Source: Christensenella minuta (GTDB lineage Bacteria; Bacillota; Clostridia; Christensenellales; Christensenellaceae). Taken from it: DNA of 64,000 bases. The stretch's first letter is position 1, and each line of letters begins with the position of its first letter. The stretch is from assembly GCF_003628755.1 (NCBI RefSeq), contig NZ_CP029256.1, positions 329,585-393,584 on the forward strand. Reading direction: 5' to 3'. Both the position numbers and the translations under genes were made by a program. Of this stretch, positions 33,281 to 40,047 are shown in pieces. The notes beneath the pieces were generated by a model. The model saw only the letters and a list, made by a program, of their open reading frames with translations, was not told the origin of the DNA and made no database searches.

Positions 33281-33357
33281 CTGGGTGTGGCTCAGCTTGG
33301 TAGAGTACCTGAATGGGGTTCAGGGGGTCGGAGGTTCAAATCCTCTCACCCAGACCA
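33281..33357 (+). tRNA. tRNA-Pro (GGG anticodon)
   Basis: 77 nt with CCA encoded. Acceptor CTGGGTG/CACCCAG with discriminator A; D stem GCTC/GAGT; anticodon stem CCTGA/TCAGG around ATGGGGT, giving GGG at positions 34-36; T stem GGAGG/CCTCT with TTCAAAT loop. It reads CCC and CCU proline codons. Its 3' end is repeated at 34962-34973, marking it as an integration site. Confidence 0.95.
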
Positions 33358-33358
33358 A
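33347..33358 (+). repeat. Left attachment-type repeat (tRNA-Pro 3' end)
   Basis: CACCCAGACCAA, the last acceptor-stem strand, discriminator and CCA of tRNA-Pro plus one A. Identical to 34962-34973. Confidence 0.75.
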
Positions 33359-33366
33359 ACGACAAT

Positions 33367-33403
33367 AATCCGAACCTTTCTTTATAAAAGAAGCGTTCGG
33401 ATT
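33367..33403. terminator. Stem-loop just inside the left end of the island
   Basis: AATCCGAAC and GTTCGGATT arms with a partly paired AT loop, then TTGTTGTTT. It may end the tRNA transcript from the left and the nuclease transcript from the right. Confidence 0.6.
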
Positions 33404-33477
33404 TGTTGTTTATACTGCTCGATTTTAATTTCCCCCCAAATAGCCACAGTATGTTATTTAGAATGAAAATTTTTTGA

Positions 33478-34662
33478 TCAACTAATATGCAATATGCTAT
33501 CTGTTATATCGATATGATCTTTTTCACCACGAGCTAACAAATACTTATCACCTTGTTGTCGGATAACAATATGCCAGTACATCCGTCCATTGTTATCCGT
33601 TATCCACATCTTACTTAAGTATTCCAAAAATTTATTATACTCGAACATAAAGACTAAATCAGAGCTCCCGCAGCCAAAACAAATATATGCTTTTTTATAC
33701 TTGCTTAACGACTCTTTTTGCGATGGGTGGAAAGCAAACCAGTAACTTCCATTCTTATCTGTTCCATGGTTCTTTGAAACTGCACAAGTTAATCCGATAC
33801 CTTTTTCTGAGTTGTCAAACAGTGTTCGCATCCTTTTTTTGAAAGGTATTCCCATTTTCTTTTGTATGACCGAGATACATGCATCGTGGAATGCTACCGG
33901 TTTTTGCTTATCCTTTTGTTCAGGATTAGAAGAATGTTGTATTATTTCAGAAACCGATCCCTCAACAACCTGTGAATCACGCCCAGCAATAAAAATTGTA
34001 TCGATCAGATAATCTAATCGAGTAAACTCCATAGGTTTTAGCACTTGACATATATGCTCAAAAGTAGCTTCGTCATCCAATAGCTCTTCCTTTAAATGCA
34101 ATAGCTTTAATAGAGCATCTGTACTGATTAAGCGTATATCCCAAGCGTGCTTTGAGCCCCGAATTTGCGCCTCCAGTCCTCCAGTGTCTTTTCTACCAAC
34201 GACCATCAATATAGATGATCGATTACTTTGAATTTTATCTGACTTTATTAACTTTTGTCTATATTCCGCAATGGTATCAATATTTATGGAATAAGTATCT
34301 GTAGTCTTAACTTCAATAACTATATCATGATCTTTCGATAGCCATAAACCATCAAATCCGATCGAGTCCTTTTTGCCTCTATAGAGTCCGTGTTCCACGC
34401 TAAAGCCCAATCTTTTGCCCAGCTCATTTACCAGATCTTGAAGAGCATATCCTGAGAAATCAAAAGGCAGTGACAAACACTCTTCGATGTAGATTTCGAT
34501 TTGTTCTGTTGGCAATAGATCAAAAAACTCTCTCATTTCTTGACAGGTTCGGCTATTATCCATCAACTTGCCTTCGCCAGAAAAAGACAATATTTGCGCT
34601 AAACTTTTACTCTCAATCGTTTCTTTATCTCGTTTCCAAATATCAGCAATAGTTTCTGCCAT
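33478..34662 (-). CDS. Predicted PD-(D/E)XK nuclease, solitary defence-gene candidate
   Basis: 394 residues from the ATG at 34662 (CAGGAGAAG precedes; the frame runs 33 codons further without a site). Residues about 95-135 read HGLYRGKKDSIGFDGLWLSKDHDIVIEVKTTDTY. Asp in GFDG followed by EVK is the restriction-endonuclease-fold catalytic pattern. The C-terminal half (about 235-394) is unassigned and contains CFGCGSS and alternating hydrophobic strands that could be a target-recognition or regulatory domain. AT-rich codons unlike the neighbours indicate recent transfer. No methyltransferase or helicase is nearby, so a type IV-like restriction or abortive function is possible but unproven. Confidence 0.75.
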   Translation of the reverse strand: MAETIADIWKRDKETIESKSLAQILSFSGEGKLMDNSRTCQEMREFFDLLPTEQIEIYIEECLSLPFDFSGYALQDLVNELGKRLGFSVEHGLYRGKKDSIGFDGLWLSKDHDIVIEVKTTDTYSINIDTIAEYRQKLIKSDKIQSNRSSILMVVGRKDTGGLEAQIRGSKHAWDIRLISTDALLKLLHLKEELLDDEATFEHICQVLKPMEFTRLDYLIDTIFIAGRDSQVVEGSVSEIIQHSSNPEQKDKQKPVAFHDACISVIQKKMGIPFKKRMRTLFDNSEKGIGLTCAVSKNHGTDKNGSYWFAFHPSQKESLSKYKKAYICFGCGSSDLVFMFEYNKFLEYLSKMWITDNNGRMYWHIVIRQQGDKYLLARGEKDHIDITDSILHIS

Positions 34663-34961
34663 CTGGCTTCTCCTGTTTTGTGAATGTTTTAGCAAATAGA
34701 ATAGAATTATTTTAATTATAACATATAAAAAGGCAAAACATGTATAATTATCTTTTTGCAAAGCATAAATTATAGAAAAATGAAGTTAACAATCAAATTA
34801 TTAGGTAGATATAATGCTAGTTTAGGATTTTTTCTTTTTTGCACCTTGTTTAGCGCATAGTAATCTCGTTTCTCAAAAAAGATTGATTCTTAGGGTAAAT
34901 ACTGCTTTTTGTTGCTGGAAAATCCCTTTGTTATGAGCTTTTTGCGTGGATGCTGTATCGC
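34663..34961. other. AT-rich non-coding end of the island
   Basis: About 300 bp with no plausible gene on either strand. The nuclease promoter must lie here; TATAAT-like hexamers are too frequent in this composition to choose one. Confidence 0.5.
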
Positions 34962-34973
34962 CACCCAGACCAA
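34962..34973 (+). repeat. Right attachment-type repeat (copy of tRNA-Pro 3' end)
   Basis: CACCCAGACCAA, identical to 33347-33358, but preceded by TGTATCGC rather than the T-arm of a tRNA, so it is a detached 3' end and not a second tRNA. Confidence 0.75.
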
Positions 34974-34974
34974 G

Positions 34975-35009
34975 AAAACCGCTCAACCGATAGGGTTTGA
35001 GCGGTTTTT
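34975..35009. terminator. Terminator-like stem-loop at the macrodomain gene end
   Basis: AAAACCGCTCAA and TTGAGCGGTTTTT arms. The macrodomain gene's last codons and stop (NRSNPIG) are encoded within it on the minus strand. It was probably also the original terminator of tRNA-Pro. Confidence 0.75.
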
Positions 35010-35783
35010 ATTTAGATTTTTGTAAATGTTAAAATCCATATCCTTAAAAACATTGAACACGATCCTATCTATCGAAGCCGTGTTTTGCCTTAGATAGTCT
35101 TTTACTGTCTGTACTGCAATCTCTGCGGCTTCTTTATTCGGGAAGTGAAATTCGCCTGTGGAAATACAGCAAAATGCAATACTATTCAATTTATGTTCGG
35201 CGGCTATATCAAGACATGATTTATAGCAGGCCGCAAGCAGGCCGCAATCTTCCTGTGTCAAATCGCCGTGAATGATTGGGCCAACGGTATGAATCACATA
35301 TTTGCTGGGCAGGTTATAGGCGCTCGTGATCTTTGCGCTGCCTGTCGGCTCTGCGTGTTTTTGCTTCTGCATGATGTCAAAGCAATTCTGCCGAAGCTGT
35401 ACGCCCGCTGCCGTGTGAATGGCGTTGTCAATACAACCGTGGCAAGGGATGAAGCAACCCAAAAGCTGGCTGTTAGCGGCGTTTACAATCGCGTCAACTG
35501 CAAGCCGGGTAATATCACCTTGCCAAAGGTACAACCTATCGTCCGATGGACAGGGAGGTATATCTTCCAGCCTGACACTGCCTTTCGCTTTTGTTTCTTC
35601 CTGCAGGAAAGCATCCTGTACAGAAAGAAATTCCTCTGAAACAGGTTTGGGCGGCCGAATATTCACAAGCGAACGCAATAACGCCCGTTTTTGTGCGTAG
35701 CCGTTAGGAATTTGTATATCCTCTGCCGGGTGTTCATGCACAAGATAATCCAGCATATAATCAAGACGTTTTGCCTGTTCCAT
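34983..35783 (-). CDS. Zn-type macrodomain protein-ADP-ribose hydrolase
   Basis: 266 residues from the ATG at 35783 (GAAGGAGGACATC precedes; the upstream frame lies inside the sirtuin gene). An N-terminal helical extension (1-80) precedes the macrodomain. WQGDIT (87-92) and NAANSQLLGC (101-110) bind ADP-ribose; PCHGCIDNAIHTAAG (113-127) is the Cys-His-Cys zinc signature of the macrodomain class encoded with SirTM sirtuins; the second loop is CISTGEFHFPNKEAA. It should remove ADP-ribose that the sirtuin adds. The start overlaps the sirtuin stop by 23 bp, implying translational coupling. Confidence 0.93.
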   Translation of the reverse strand: MEQAKRLDYMLDYLVHEHPAEDIQIPNGYAQKRALLRSLVNIRPPKPVSEEFLSVQDAFLQEETKAKGSVRLEDIPPCPSDDRLYLWQGDITRLAVDAIVNAANSQLLGCFIPCHGCIDNAIHTAAGVQLRQNCFDIMQKQKHAEPTGSAKITSAYNLPSKYVIHTVGPIIHGDLTQEDCGLLAACYKSCLDIAAEHKLNSIAFCCISTGEFHFPNKEAAEIAVQTVKDYLRQNTASIDRIVFNVFKDMDFNIYKNLNKNRSNPIG

Positions 35784-36645
35784 AATGATGTCCTCCTTCA
35801 CAGCGTAGTAATGTGCGTATGGCAGGTGCAATATCTTCCGTGAAAGCAACCGTGCGCCGTATATTTTCCTTTGCACCGTTCGGATAATCCCGATTGAACC
35901 TGACAAGGGTTGCATCCACATTCTGATATGTGATCTGCTCAAAAGGAAAACGGATAATGCCCGGTGTATTATAGCCGACGCCAAGCTCTAACAGCACGAG
36001 TTTTTTATCCAGTACTTTTTTGATGTAATCGCTGTACCTCGTATGGTTTTGGCGCCACACTTCATTCTCTACAAAGTATTCGTCTTTCCGCACATGCACG
36101 GACATATCCCCGCCGCATATCGGACACTTCGGAACAAGGCTAGATGGTATTTTCAGATCAACAGCATTCTCTATCATTTCACGCACAGCGGCTTCATTTC
36201 GGTATAGCTTACTGTGGCATCCTTTGGCGCATTGGAAAAAGCCGTAATCGCCCTGTATGGCGAAAAACCTTTCCATGGAAAACCCCGCTTTTTCAAACTG
36301 TGCGTCCACATTCGTTGTGATAACGAAATAGTCCCTGTCTTGTATCAGTTTAAGCAATTCCTTATATAATGGCAGGGCAGGAACGTCCCATCTGTTAGCG
36401 GCAATATGCCGCGCCCAATACGCCCATAGCTCTTCCTGTGTCTTATATGGGTAGAAGGTTGCCGAATACATATCTTCCACTCCATACTTTTTGATAAAGT
36501 CGGCAAATTGTTTTTCAAACCGCTCACCGGAATAGGATAATCCCGCCGAAGCGGATAGCCCCGCGCCCGCGCCTATCAAAATATATTCCGCATTTTGCAC
36601 CGCCTTATATGCCCGTTCCAGCCTTTTGCCGTAATCATTTTTCAT
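35761..36645 (-). CDS. SirTM-type protein-ADP-ribosylating sirtuin
   Basis: 294 residues from the ATG at 36645 (a TTG two codons upstream is an alternative). NAD loop GAGAGLSASAG (25-35), TTNVD (110-114), and a zinc ribbon C139/C143/C174/C177. The residue that is the catalytic His in deacetylase sirtuins is Gln131 (AIQGDYGFFQC). This His-to-Gln change is known for SirTM enzymes, which transfer ADP-ribose to protein and do not deacylate. In pathogens the partners are a lipoylated GcvH-like carrier and LplA2; neither is present here. The macrodomain gene overlaps its end. The target protein is unknown. Confidence 0.93.
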   Translation of the reverse strand: MKNDYGKRLERAYKAVQNAEYILIGAGAGLSASAGLSYSGERFEKQFADFIKKYGVEDMYSATFYPYKTQEELWAYWARHIAANRWDVPALPLYKELLKLIQDRDYFVITTNVDAQFEKAGFSMERFFAIQGDYGFFQCAKGCHSKLYRNEAAVREMIENAVDLKIPSSLVPKCPICGGDMSVHVRKDEYFVENEVWRQNHTRYSDYIKKVLDKKLVLLELGVGYNTPGIIRFPFEQITYQNVDATLVRFNRDYPNGAKENIRRTVAFTEDIAPAIRTLLRCEGGHHYGTGKTS

Positions 36646-36899
36646 CTGCAAACCCTCTGTATATCACTGCTCCTGCCAAACAAGCCTCTTTGCAGTTCCC
36701 GCAGGGAAGACAATTTCGTTGTTCAATTTGTACGGGATATCCATACGGATACAGCTTGGATTGCGGTTTTCCGAGGCAATCCTTTGCCATTTCTGTTATC
36801 GCCGCATACCCGTTGTGGGTAAGCTGTGCATGGAAATCCTTACCCTTTAAGGTTACAAAGTACAGCTTTTCATAAAATAAAGATCAATGGCTTTTTCAT
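36635..36899 (-). pseudogene. Frameshifted small Cys-rich gene before the sirtuin
   Basis: ATG at 36899 has a GGGAAAGGAATAC ribosome site but stops after MKKPLIFIL. Removing one base in the TTTT run near 36878 (minus strand) opens a continuous frame of 87 residues ending at 36635, inside the sirtuin start. The predicted product has HAQLTHNGYAAITEMAKDC and, near the end, CLPCGNCKEAC, a CxxCxxCxxxC pattern that could hold a 4Fe-4S cluster or zinc. It is either a true frameshift, a sequencing error in a homopolymer, or a recoded gene. Its place in the sirtuin operon makes it a candidate ADP-ribosylation target or redox partner. Family not recognised. Confidence 0.6.
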
Positions 36900-36931
36900 G
36901 TTGTATTCCTTTCCCTGCGGATATATTGTCC

Positions 36932-37567
36932 TTACCCGCCGACAACGGTAAAACGCTCTTTGATATGCTCGCCATTTTCGATTTCGTCCACCATAGCAAT
37001 CGCGTAATCCGCGTAACTGATTTCACTTTGTCCAGCGGAATTGACAAGCAGTTCTTCGCCGCCTGCCCTGTACTTGCCGGTGCGCGCGCCTTCCGCATCA
37101 AAATTCGCGGATGGGCTGATATATGTCCAGTTCACATCATTGCGGGTTTTGAGTTCATTAAACGCCGCGCACATGTTTATTGCAAGGGGTTTGAACGTGT
37201 CCGGGAAGTCCGGTGTGTCCATGACGCGGGTAGTGTGCTGTGGGTCAACATACAGGCCGCCCGCGCCGCCAACGACGAGCAGGCGGTTGGGTTTGCCGCT
37301 CAAAACATCCGCAAGGTGCATGAGCGATGTTTTATGCTGCGGTAAATCTTTTTCCGCCCATACGCCGAAAGCGTCAACAATCGCGTCATAGTCCTTCAGA
37401 TCGTCGTAGGTAAGGGCCAAAATATCTTTTGTCATTTTTTGAGCCTGCGCGGGTACATCCTTTGAAGCATCCCGCACGATTCCCGTTACCTTGTGGCCCC
37501 GCGCAAGGGCTTCCTTTGTTATAACACTACCCGATTTTCCGCTTGCTCCGATTACTGCAATTTTCAT
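36932..37567 (-). CDS. NAD(P)H-binding oxidoreductase (SDR-like, NmrA/YwnB type)
   Basis: 211 residues. MKIAVIGASGKSGSVITKEALARGHKVTGIVRD is an atypical-SDR nucleotide loop GASGKSG; LLVVGGAGGLYVDP and the C-terminal SYADYAIAMVDEIE match the YwnB/azoreductase-like group. It lacks the YxxxK pair of classical SDRs. Divergent from an HxlR regulator; such pairs respond to quinones, diamide or aldehydes. First gene of the minus-strand set leading to the sirtuin and macrodomain, with only 33 bp before the Cys-rich small gene. Confidence 0.9.
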   Translation of the reverse strand: MKIAVIGASGKSGSVITKEALARGHKVTGIVRDASKDVPAQAQKMTKDILALTYDDLKDYDAIVDAFGVWAEKDLPQHKTSLMHLADVLSGKPNRLLVVGGAGGLYVDPQHTTRVMDTPDFPDTFKPLAINMCAAFNELKTRNDVNWTYISPSANFDAEGARTGKYRAGGEELLVNSAGQSEISYADYAIAMVDEIENGEHIKERFTVVGG

Positions 37568-37644
37568 TTTCGAATCCTCCTTAAATTTTCGGCTTGCTTT
37601 TTCCTGTCGATAACATTAGAATACGGATATAAGGCAATATTGTA

Positions 37645-37675
37645 AAGTAAGCACTTTAAAGTACCGTAGTTACTT
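37645..37675. promoter_or_regulatory. HxlR-type operator region
   Basis: Two overlapping-style dyads, AAGTAAGCACTT (37645-37656) and AAGTA-N7-TACTT (37659-37675), in the divergent gap. The TACT...AGTA form resembles YodB/HxlR operators. Placement suggests simultaneous control of the regulator and the oxidoreductase-sirtuin operon. Confidence 0.55.
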
Positions 37676-37720
37676 TATGGTGACTATTGCGCAACAAAGC
37701 AATTTGGAAGGTGTGATGAT

Positions 37721-38044
37721 ATGAAAAAAGATTTGCCTGCTTGCCCTGTGGAAACCACTCTTTTATTTTTGGGGGAAAAATGGCGCGTACTTATACTGCG
37801 GGATTTGATGGAAGGTACAAAACGTTTCGGGGAGTTGCGAAAGTCTGTAAGCGGCATTTCCCAAAAAGTATTGACTTCTAATCTACGAGCCATGGAAGAA
37901 GGCGGCATTGTGAAACGCAAAGTCTATGCGGAAGTACCGCCGCGCGTGGAATATTCGCTAACGGAAACGGGAAAAAGCCTGCAACCAGTTTTGGATTCTA
38001 TGACAGACTGGGGTATGATGTATAAGGCGGAGAATGGAGTGTAA
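37721..38044 (+). CDS. HxlR-family transcriptional regulator
   Basis: 107 residues, a single winged helix-turn-helix. CPVETTLLFLGEKWRVLILRDLMEGTKRFGELRKSVSGISQKVLTSNLRAMEEGGIVKRKVYAEVPPRVEYSLTETG is the complete HxlR signature. Cys8 in the N-terminal CPVE is the position used by YodB-type members to sense electrophiles or disulfide stress. Likely represses the divergent oxidoreductase gene and possibly the sirtuin pair. A terminator follows at 38185. Confidence 0.95.
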   Translation: MKKDLPACPVETTLLFLGEKWRVLILRDLMEGTKRFGELRKSVSGISQKVLTSNLRAMEEGGIVKRKVYAEVPPRVEYSLTETGKSLQPVLDSMTDWGMMYKAENGV

Positions 38045-38184
38045 ATACAAAAAAGCGATTGGGTTATTCTTCAATCATTCCGTTTGATTTCTGTAAATAC
38101 TGCTTATCTGCTGCAAGAAAAATCTATTATGTATTCCCTGGTTTTGCAGAATATACACTTGCATCGTGCTATATACTATGATTT

Positions 38185-38217
38185 GGGAGAGTCCTTAAAG
38201 GGCGCTCCCGTTTTTTT
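38185..38217 (+). terminator. Terminator between the HxlR and ku genes
   Basis: GGGAG and CTCCC outer arms with inner CCTT/AAGG pairing, then seven T. The remaining gap to ku (38218-38296) is AT-rich and must hold the ku promoter; I cannot choose hexamers with confidence. Confidence 0.8.
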
Positions 38218-38296
38218 CCCGCTCCGCAAAAAAAACTTTATAAAAGCCGAAACGGGTTATATATGTATGTATCATGAAAGCAAAGGAACTGATCGT

Positions 38297-39085
38297 ATGG
38301 CAAAAACGCAACGCAGCGCTATCTCATTTGGGCTGGTGCATATCCCTGCGGAACTATATACTGTTGTGCAGGATAACGATATCCATTTCAATCAATTGGC
38401 AAAGGATAATCATGAAAGGGTCCGGTATAAAAAAACGTGCCCTTCCTGCAAACGGGAACTGACCAGCAACGACATCGTGAAGGGGTTCGAGTATGAAAAG
38501 GGCAAATATGTTGTCATAACAGATGACGATTTTGAGAAAATCAAGACGGAAAAGGACCGGTCGATCCAAATTATGTTTTTTACCGATTTTGGAAAAATTG
38601 ATCCGATTTATTATAACAGGTCCTATTATGTCCTGCCGGAAAAAGGTGGGGAAAAAGCATTTGAACTCCTTCGCGAGGCGATGTACGAAGAAAAGAAAGC
38701 GGCCGTGGGGAAGACTGTGCTGGGGAACAGCGAAACGCTGCTGGTGCTGCTTCCGCAAAAAACGGGGATCCTCATGGAAACCTTATTTTATGCCGATGAG
38801 GTGAAGGATATCCCCAGAGAATTACCTAAAACGAAGGTGGGCAAGGCGGAGCTTGACATGGCAAAGCAGCTGATTGAAACCATGAATGGGGAATTCAGGC
38901 CGGAGCAGTATCAGGACGGGTATCAGCAGAAGTTGAGAGAACTGATTGAGAAGAAGATCGAAGGACAGGAGATTGTAGCGCCGGGAGAGGAGAAGGAAAG
39001 CAATATCATCGATCTTATGGATGCGCTCAAGGCCAGCCTTGGAAAAGACGGACAAAAAAACGCGAAAAGGGCGACGGGAAAATAA
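38297..39085 (+). CDS. ku: Non-homologous end-joining protein Ku
   Basis: 262 residues from the ATG at 38297 (AAAGGAAC site; about 70 further upstream codons lack a ribosome site and cross a terminator). MAKTQRSAISFGLVHIPAELY is the typical Ku start; KKTCPSCKRELTSNDIVKGFEYEKGKYVVI and the dimerisation core follow. The basic tail after GEEKES (SLGKDGQKNAKRATGK) is usual for bacterial Ku. The homodimer threads onto DNA ends and recruits the ligase complex. Stop and ligase start share one base. Confidence 0.97.
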   Translation: MAKTQRSAISFGLVHIPAELYTVVQDNDIHFNQLAKDNHERVRYKKTCPSCKRELTSNDIVKGFEYEKGKYVVITDDDFEKIKTEKDRSIQIMFFTDFGKIDPIYYNRSYYVLPEKGGEKAFELLREAMYEEKKAAVGKTVLGNSETLLVLLPQKTGILMETLFYADEVKDIPRELPKTKVGKAELDMAKQLIETMNGEFRPEQYQDGYQQKLRELIEKKIEGQEIVAPGEEKESNIIDLMDALKASLGKDGQKNAKRATGK

Positions 39086-40047
39086 TGGACGTATTTGAAG
39101 GCAAAGCACTGAGGCCCATGCTTATTGGAAAAGAAGGCAGGCCGTTTGACAGCGGCGATTACTTGTACGAGCTTAAATTCGACGGGGAGCGGTGCCTTGC
39201 TTATTTAGACGGCAGCGGCACCACACTTGTCAACAGGCAGGGAGGAAAGGTGCTGCAGAAAGTACCTGAGCTCGCTTCGCTCCACAGGCAGGCCAGCCAA
39301 AAGTGTATCCTGGACGGAGAACTGGTTGTGGCGGAGAGCGGGATATCCGGTTTCGAGCAGATGAAACAGCGCTGGCTGACATCCAACAAGGCGAAGATAG
39401 AAATATTGTCAAAGAAAGTTCCCGTTACTTTCATCGCCTTTGATATTCTTTACTTGCAAAACGATATGTTGATGGACCGGGAGCTGCTGGAAAGGAAAAT
39501 ATTGCTTGAAAAAGCGCTTGTGGAAAACGAACGCCTGTCGGTCTCGAAATATATTGAAAAGCGCGGAACCGAATTTTTTGAATTAGCCAGCCGGAAAGGG
39601 CTGGAAGGGATTGTCGGCAAAAAAATGGACAGCAAGTATTATCCCGGCAGGCGAACGGCGAACTGGATCAAAATAAAAAACATACAGGATGATGATTTTG
39701 TCGTATGCGGCTACTTAAAAAAGCTGAATCACATTATAAGCCTTGTGTTGGGGCAGTATGGTCCAACAGGCAGGCTTTTATATATGGGACGCGCAACGCT
39801 CCGCGAATCGCAGGAAGATTTCTCGGTGATAGAAGGACAAAAGAGAACAGAACGGCAGCCCTTTGAAGAAAAATTACCGGACGGGATGCGAAATATAGTC
39901 TGGATCGAACCGAGACTGGTATGCAGGGTGGAGTTTCTGAACCGTACGCCGGGCGGCGGCATAAGGCAGCCTGTATATAAGGGACTTAGGCTGGATAAAA
40001 AACCGAGAGAAGCGGTTTTGCCAGCACCGCGGAGTTCGCGTGGATAA
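39085..40047 (+). CDS. ATP-dependent DNA ligase domain protein (LigD ligase part)
   Basis: 320 residues. YELKFDGER places the adenylated Lys at residue 31; VNRQGGKV, LDGELVV, FIAFDILYL, GLEGIVGKK and NWIKIKN are ligase motifs Ia to V, and an OB domain with FLNRTPGGGIRQPVYKGLR ends it. It corresponds to the ligase module of LigD as a stand-alone protein. It would seal nicks after end processing by the phosphoesterase-polymerase protein encoded 20 bp downstream. Confidence 0.95.
   Translation: MDVFEGKALRPMLIGKEGRPFDSGDYLYELKFDGERCLAYLDGSGTTLVNRQGGKVLQKVPELASLHRQASQKCILDGELVVAESGISGFEQMKQRWLTSNKAKIEILSKKVPVTFIAFDILYLQNDMLMDRELLERKILLEKALVENERLSVSKYIEKRGTEFFELASRKGLEGIVGKKMDSKYYPGRRTANWIKIKNIQDDDFVVCGYLKKLNHIISLVLGQYGPTGRLLYMGRATLRESQEDFSVIEGQKRTERQPFEEKLPDGMRNIVWIEPRLVCRVEFLNRTPGGGIRQPVYKGLRLDKKPREAVLPAPRSSRG

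Follow-up and report, generated by a model that had tools for sequence, protein, structure and literature searches.

The window, a 64-kb stretch covering bases 329585-393584 of the 2.97-Mb single-contig genome of Christensenella minuta (G000), contains a tRNA-Pro gene followed by a 1.6-kb interval that encodes one protein of 394 aa on the minus strand (Table 1). An initial annotation, made from the letters alone, had described this interval as an island without a recombinase, delimited by a repeat of the tRNA 3′ end. The ORF list of the interval bears this out: an integrase or recombinase ORF was sought between the repeats and none was found, and integration and conjugation genes are likewise missing beside the single ORF. 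The 12-bp repeat CACCCAGACCAA is exact and occurs exactly twice in the window, on the same strand and about 1.6 kb apart (33347 and 34962), compared with about 0.0025 chance copies per window and 3.5e-5 per 1.6-kb interval expected from base composition. The AT-rich character of the interval was also confirmed, with a GC content of 0.35 against 0.52 in the window and 0.53 in the left flank.

A ribosome-binding site can be read ahead of the gene, and the upstream region is AT-rich. Homology to the other Christensenella genomes stops at the last base of tRNA-Pro, and the left end of the island is similar to the tRNA-Leu 3′ flank of four Christensenella genomes. A hairpin followed by a T-run (AACCGCTCAA..TTGAGCGGTTTTT) can be seen by eye 3′ of the right repeat, which agrees with the terminator stem described there, but a strict terminator scan did not list it; the left-end hairpin was also not among the listings of that scan.

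For comparison we used five other Christensenella species (G001-G005, with G001 being C. hongkongensis) and twelve further family members, including G017 from another genus of Christensenellaceae, with one genome per species. The nuclease is missing at tRNA-Pro in all five other Christensenella species. It is absent altogether from four of the six species in the genus, and the closest copy, that of C. hongkongensis (L002), lies elsewhere in the genome, making a fixed ancestral locus unlikely. The empty-site comparison suggested by the initial annotation turned up no clean empty site with the right flank of the window among these genomes; the window and G002 realign only from 42254.

Table 1 Features of the tRNA-Pro locus (window coordinates)
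Feature	Position	Strand	Basis or remark
tRNA-Pro(GGG), attachment gene	33281..33357	+	ARAGORN, Rfam
Left copy of 12-bp direct repeat CACCCAGACCAA, core at tRNA 3′ end	33347..33358	+	
Left end: hairpin ATCCGAAC..GTTCGGAT, then T-rich tail	33367..33412	+	No P′ half-site
394-aa nuclease gene, predicted PD-(D/E)XK	33478..34662	-	ORF, alignment, fold; coordinates include stop codon
C-terminal domain, residues 254-394, PD-(D/E)XK-like fold	33481..33903	-	Structure matches, conservation
N-terminal domain, predicted catalytic, residues 1-231, D104 / E117-V-K119	33970..34662	-	Fold and invariant residues
RE, conserved right end GTAAATACTGCTTTTnGTTGC..CTTTTGTTATG..GCTGTATCGCCAYYCAGACCA, tRNA-like core at tip	34887..34972	+	~86 bp
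Right copy of 12-bp repeat CACCCAGACCAA	34962..34973	+	
Probable second, older tandem unit	34973..38190	.	Bounded by decayed RE; right boundary approximate
Hairpin after right end, start of next unit	34974..35015	+	By eye; begins AGAAAACCGCT, as does the left end of the G005 island
Decayed second RE	38088..38155	+	14.5 bits, E 0.0018 over window

The conserved right end and other tRNA-Pro loci

The right-hand repeat is the tip of a longer conserved element, here called RE, whose conservation begins with GTAAATACTGC and finishes with CAYYCAGACCA, the tRNA end. When the window RE alone was compared by BLAST with 396 genomes of the order, strong matches were confined to Christensenellaceae, namely G017 twice (E 4.2e-16 and 5e-9), G003 (4.9e-12), and G002 (1.1e-11). 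A sequence-only model built from six copies, the G005 copy among them, recovers each of these matches as well as the G005 copy (51.5 bits) and a degenerate copy in G003 (20.8 bits, weak by itself); the window RE, itself one of the sequences in the model, scores 82.2 bits (E 1.4e-24). Neither BLAST nor the model gave a convincing match beyond the family in 396 order or 391 class genomes. RE is thus found downstream of tRNA-Pro in G002, G003, and G005 and as a tandem pair in G017, a member of another genus, and it has the look of a serine-recombinase P half-site.

The DNA that ends in RE differs from genome to genome. In G002, the sequence upstream of tRNA-Pro stays collinear with that of the window as far as the final tRNA base and is unrelated beyond, and RE lies 1753 bp past the tRNA behind DUF5343 and Hypoth_Ymh (PF09509, TIGR02391) cargo that matches the PADLOC models PDC-M34A and PD-Lambda-3_B/Aga_HEPN. 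The G005 island spans 1726 bp, encodes an SLFN_AlbA_2/HATPase_c_4 protein, and is closed by an RE that contains deletions. The small islands of G000, G002, and G005 are alike in size (1.6-1.75 kb) and GC content (0.35, 0.36, and 0.34), with different cargo. Two tandem REs are present in G017, one behind an sce7726 protein and the other behind a LuxE/LuxC pair. In the remaining two species no RE was found near tRNA-Pro, which is followed by a pckA-like gene in G001 and by a different intergenic region in G004. The sequence behind RE was also informative: CGTCGGAG in G002 equals the bases directly 3′ of tRNA-Pro in G004, and GTCGTGGTGGATTCCGCGA..CCGAGCGGGTTTT, behind the RE of an island at tRNA-Leu in G003, is close to the tRNA-Val flank of the same genome. 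RE therefore precedes what appears to be a displaced tRNA flank.

Several other leads on RE were set aside. Folding z-scores between -0.84 and 1.21 indicate that RE is not a single-strand hairpin of the attC kind. An exact match to CTGTATCGCCACCCAGACCA in one 81.7-kb viral contig lies in a long open region with no tRNA nearby and was attributed to chance, and matches to GTAAATACTGCTTTTnGTTGC in three near-identical viral contigs stop inside or beside an unrelated gene and miss the core, so that a phage origin was rejected in both cases. An inverted RE block upstream of a G003 recombinase (E 0.1) was not used, and an RE-like stretch near the C. hongkongensis nuclease (E 0.023), on the opposite side of the gene, was not taken as evidence.

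Partial copies and shared neighbors were recorded as well. The middle block of RE (GCTTAAAAACCCCTTTGTTATGCG) occurs alone in a C. hongkongensis contig beside GGGAACA repeats (L148:1500-1540; G001:C39:5127-5166). A partial RE-like block in the genome of the window (L155:1501-1540; G000:C1:2900054-2900092) lies at the 3′ end of a TrkH-like gene, about 1.2 kb from tRNA-Met, and a TrkH-like gene also adjoins the G005 tRNA-Pro island. The pair of LuxE/LuxC-like acyl-protein synthetase and acyl-CoA reductase genes is found in the variable region at the G002 tRNA-Pro (L047:16145-18552) and, in another genus, within a unit closed by RE (L080:8648-11052).

Serine-recombinase islands and the proposed movement of the nuclease island

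Two islands in G003 combine RE with a recombinase. A gene for a 575-aa serine recombinase has its 3′ end 50 bp past tRNA-Pro in this genome, with RE 107 kb further on, and the enzyme contains Resolvase, Recombinase, Zn_ribbon_recom, and DUF4368 domains (TndX/TnpX type). A second serine recombinase, 59% identical to the first, has its 3′ end against tRNA-Leu(CAG), and the degenerate RE lies 8.6 kb beyond it; no other serine recombinase of the family exceeds 44% identity to the tRNA-Pro enzyme. The left ends (LE) of the two islands are related (CGAGTGTTCTTAYAG.ATTTGA..TGTAAGAACACTC), and their tRNA genes agree at 20 of the last 25 positions. Islands of this serine-recombinase family appear to insert in Christensenellaceae tRNA genes, precisely at the 3′ CCA terminus.

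The attP sites of large serine recombinases are imperfect palindromes around the crossover. When RE, CA, and LE were joined by script, an imperfect palindrome resulted for both the Pro island (14/24, p 0.0008) and the Leu island (13/24, p 0.006), p-values that come from single-pair shuffles around a center picked after inspection and are indicative. The dyad is best centered on the CA of the tRNA CCA end, and six other registers gave no comparable match. The joined RE.CA.LE sequence thus looks like an attP with its crossover in the terminal CA of the tRNA. The RE of the window pairs equally well with the helper LE (14/24) but not with its own left flank (5/24), and the RE of G002 behaves in the same way (15/24 and 6/24), which indicates that the small islands carry one half-site. 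Accordingly, the window island has an RE half-site and no LE half-site.

We therefore propose that the window island is, very probably, a recombinase-less passenger of the serine-recombinase island family. The last 25 nt of tRNA-Pro would serve as the B half-site, and the recombinase would join attP (RE-half.CA.LE-half) to attB (the tRNA 3′ half). A helper island may have entered tRNA-Pro ahead of a stretch bounded by an older RE, and recombination between the helper attL and the distal attR could then have excised helper and passenger together for re-insertion into the tRNA-Pro of another cell. If the helper subsequently left by itself, the passenger would remain attached to the CCA end and lack an LE half-site. 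The genomes, one per species, present the end states, and each of these steps is inferred from them. The model explains exact left junctions that lack a conserved left end, tRNA-flank-like hairpins at left ends, constant right ends, and tandem units with the older REs more distal. The helper islands are known from one genome (G003), in which a tyrosine integrase was dismissed as the helper since none lies within the island. No close copy of the helper recombinase is present in G000, where the best match is 43% identical and located elsewhere, so the window island is probably immobile until a helper arrives. Hence the cargo-only, satellite-like character first suggested for it holds in that the insertion contains cargo only and its RE recurs with other, mostly defence-like cargo; the helper to which the evidence points is a serine-recombinase island rather than a phage.

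The G003 segment from tRNA-Pro to RE (G003:C1:44567-152112; L048, L142-L145, L081) is a composite of about 107 kb, inverted relative to the genes flanking the window locus. It contains several serine recombinases, VirD4/TraG-like and ParB-like genes, and, judged from the look of the sequence, a tetracycline-resistance-type ribosomal protection protein. The cargo of the tRNA-Leu serine-recombinase island includes a 751-aa protein with no Pfam family (L175:9552-11807).

The nearest parallel is found in the ssrA islands of Dehalococcoides, which lie in tandem downstream of an RNA gene, are bounded by repeats of its 3′ end, and encode DsiB, a large serine recombinase that abuts attL with its 3′ end; an integration module is missing from many of them, and accretion has been proposed for their movement (McMurdie 2011, PMC3146451). 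Those islands target ssrA with a CcrB-like recombinase and a CcrA-like partner, whereas the Christensenella islands use tRNA-Pro or tRNA-Leu and a TndX/TnpX-type (DUF4368) enzyme, and the module-less islands described here differ from them in being 1.6-1.75 kb long and in missing one attachment half-site. CIMEs are cis-mobilizable elements, which an autonomous element moves in cis. As relayed in a review (Pavlovic 2004; Bellanger 2011; via PMC5704250), they have no integration or transfer genes and ends related to those of an autonomous island, with functional attL and attR kept. The window island resembles CIMEs of that description in lacking such genes, in standing in tandem with other islands, and in sharing an attR-type end with the autonomous G003 islands. 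Unlike them, it keeps the attR-type end only, its left end consisting of the tRNA half and core with no P′ half-site. It therefore fails the strict definition, as relayed there, on attL, yet by analogy appears to work like a CIME. The G003 recombinase shares its domain architecture with the enzymes of Tn4451/Tn5397 (TnpX/TndX) and is 36% identical to TndX; an autonomous island of this type has the recombinase that the window interval lacks. The review literature places the integration sites of serine-recombinase IMEs in Firmicutes within dispensable genes and does not describe tRNA ends as targets of such elements (PMC5704250). In contrast to Tn4451/Tn5397, the G003 islands join at the CCA end of tRNA genes and leave the tRNAs intact.

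These results bear on the question of how recombinase-less islands reach tRNA sites and stay precise, and offer a concrete proposal that combines a common half-site, a named helper recombinase, and a crossover in the universal tRNA CCA end; such a crossover would allow one enzyme family to use several tRNA genes.

An alternative, which we regard as unlikely, is that the site was formerly occupied by a complete island with a tyrosine or serine recombinase, that an internal deletion then removed the integrase, and that the useful nuclease was kept in the fossil. The usual end of such islands as CIMEs (PMC5704250) fits this reading, as do the degenerate REs of the distal window copy and of G005 and the lack of a close recombinase in G000. 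However, random deletions are expected to leave LE fragments, whereas the islands of G000, G002, and G005 begin right at the CCA end and show no remnant of the conserved LE, and they are equal in size (1.6-1.75 kb) and GC despite their different cargo. Still less likely is that RE alone suffices and that units ending in RE are shuffled at tRNA-Pro by a recombinase acting in trans, in the manner of integron integrases and attC cassettes. RE is indeed the sole conserved end of the small units, whose left ends differ, and tandem arrays with one RE per unit occur in G017 and, through a decayed copy, in the window. On the other hand, RE does not fold like attC, in RE islands that encode a recombinase the palindrome is completed by a conserved LE, and large serine recombinases normally require both half-sites. 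Likewise improbable is a tRNA-anchored cassette system distinct from integrons, whose cassettes carry the hairpin-folding attC that RE is not. In such a system a trans-acting TndX-type recombinase that crosses over at the terminal CA of the tRNA would collect any RE-ended DNA at the tRNA-Pro CCA end, and the resulting arrays would hold mostly defence genes with one half-site each.

The nuclease and its likely role

The nuclease has no match in Pfam, NCBIfam, PADLOC (E<=1), or PDB sequences, consistent with the earlier view of an undescribed gene, and adds a family that is nameless in current libraries. Its relatives (38-87% identity) are found in Bacteroidota, Spirochaetes, Desulfobacterota, Proteobacteria, and two viral contigs. 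The D...EVK core read from the sequence proved to be conserved, as D104, E117, and K119 are invariant in nine aligned relatives, and an AlphaFold2 model (pLDDT 79) supports the PD-(D/E)XK assignment, with residues 1-231 matching Nt.BspD6I (Z 15.1, 178 aligned, 3.0 Å), HindIII (Z 13.9), and FokI (Z 13.4). The N-terminal half is accordingly predicted to adopt a FokI/HindIII-type PD-(D/E)XK fold. Although it shares this predicted fold (Z 13-15) and the D..ExK motif with FokI, HindIII, and BspD6I, the protein differs from them in its low identity (11-15%), lack of a methyltransferase neighbor, and C-terminal domain.

Modelled alone (pLDDT 87), the C-terminal domain resembles NhoI (Z 8.2), I-Ssp6803I (7.4), and RecU (6.9). 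The likeness to NhoI, and to the BisI family with Eco15I, is the feature that bears on a Type IV (modification-dependent) assignment. It is middling (Z about 8), and in NhoI that fold is an active catalytic domain that reads 5mC (PMC11347163), for which reason a first reading of this C-terminus as an NEco-type 5mC reader was dropped. The domain has no invariant acidic residue in the alignment, and it is therefore presumed to be the DNA-recognition part and probably not catalytic. Comparison with the C. hongkongensis copy gave a dN/dS of 0.038, with synonymous sites near saturation, indicating that the gene is maintained by strong purifying selection.

Defence genes gather at tRNA hotspots. Listing the neighbors of the homologues, as had been suggested, placed one directly behind a Type I RM operon (L009), one beside Vsr and Hypoth_Ymh (L006), and others near AAA_21 (L005) and HATPase_c_4 (L007) genes, and two of these neighboring families are also cargo of the sibling islands. 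These restriction- and defence-type neighbors, together with the sibling cargo, make anti-phage defence the likeliest role. The cargo probably acts as a solitary restriction-type DNA endonuclease directed against incoming DNA such as phage, in which the N-terminal FokI/HindIII-like domain would cleave and the C-terminal domain would choose the target. In contrast to Type II restriction-modification, no cognate methyltransferase stands alongside: none was found in the window interval or immediately beside the gene in L003-L008. The nuclease would therefore have to spare host DNA through a modified, structured, or non-host target.

The gene also occurs outside RE-ended islands, and one RE-ended unit (G017, LuxE/LuxC) carries non-defence cargo. 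The C. hongkongensis copy has a tyrosine integrase and prophage-type regulators as neighbors, and the homologues of two viral contigs (L158, L159) lie between terminase gpA and a portal-like gene, settings which suggest that the nuclease travels on several vehicles. Searches for homologues found none in phages and one weak partial match in plasmids. The terminase-portal interval is a usual place for homing endonucleases, and the C-terminal part resembles I-Ssp6803I, but a role in homing or mobility, or a phage-derived gene, in place of host defence is quite doubtful, given that the flanks show no homing-type conservation, the bacterial homologues adjoin restriction and other defence-type genes, and the sibling islands hold unrelated defence-like cargo. 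We consider the full model, helper-dependent mobility of the island with the nuclease serving in defence, to be reasonably probable. RE provides a handle for further cargo genes in this poorly explored gut family. In L158 and L159, the homologue lies behind two DNA-methyltransferase-like genes.

A probable older unit downstream

The second-best match to the RE model in the window, after the intact RE, is the decayed copy at the far end of the next unit. This unit encodes a macro-domain hydrolase, a Sir2-like (SirTM-type) protein, an NAD(P)-binding protein, and a MarR/HxlR regulator, and the decayed RE suggests that it is an earlier insertion displaced by the nuclease unit. Its macro-domain protein-ADP-ribose hydrolase (NF003163) and SirTM-type genes (34983-36651) overlap in order and form a reversible ADP-ribosylation pair. 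Immediately 3′ of the decayed RE lie genes for Ku and a LigD-like ATP-dependent ligase (38084-40047), a two-gene NHEJ set; the annotated start of the Ku ORF overlaps the decayed RE, so the real start is probably downstream.
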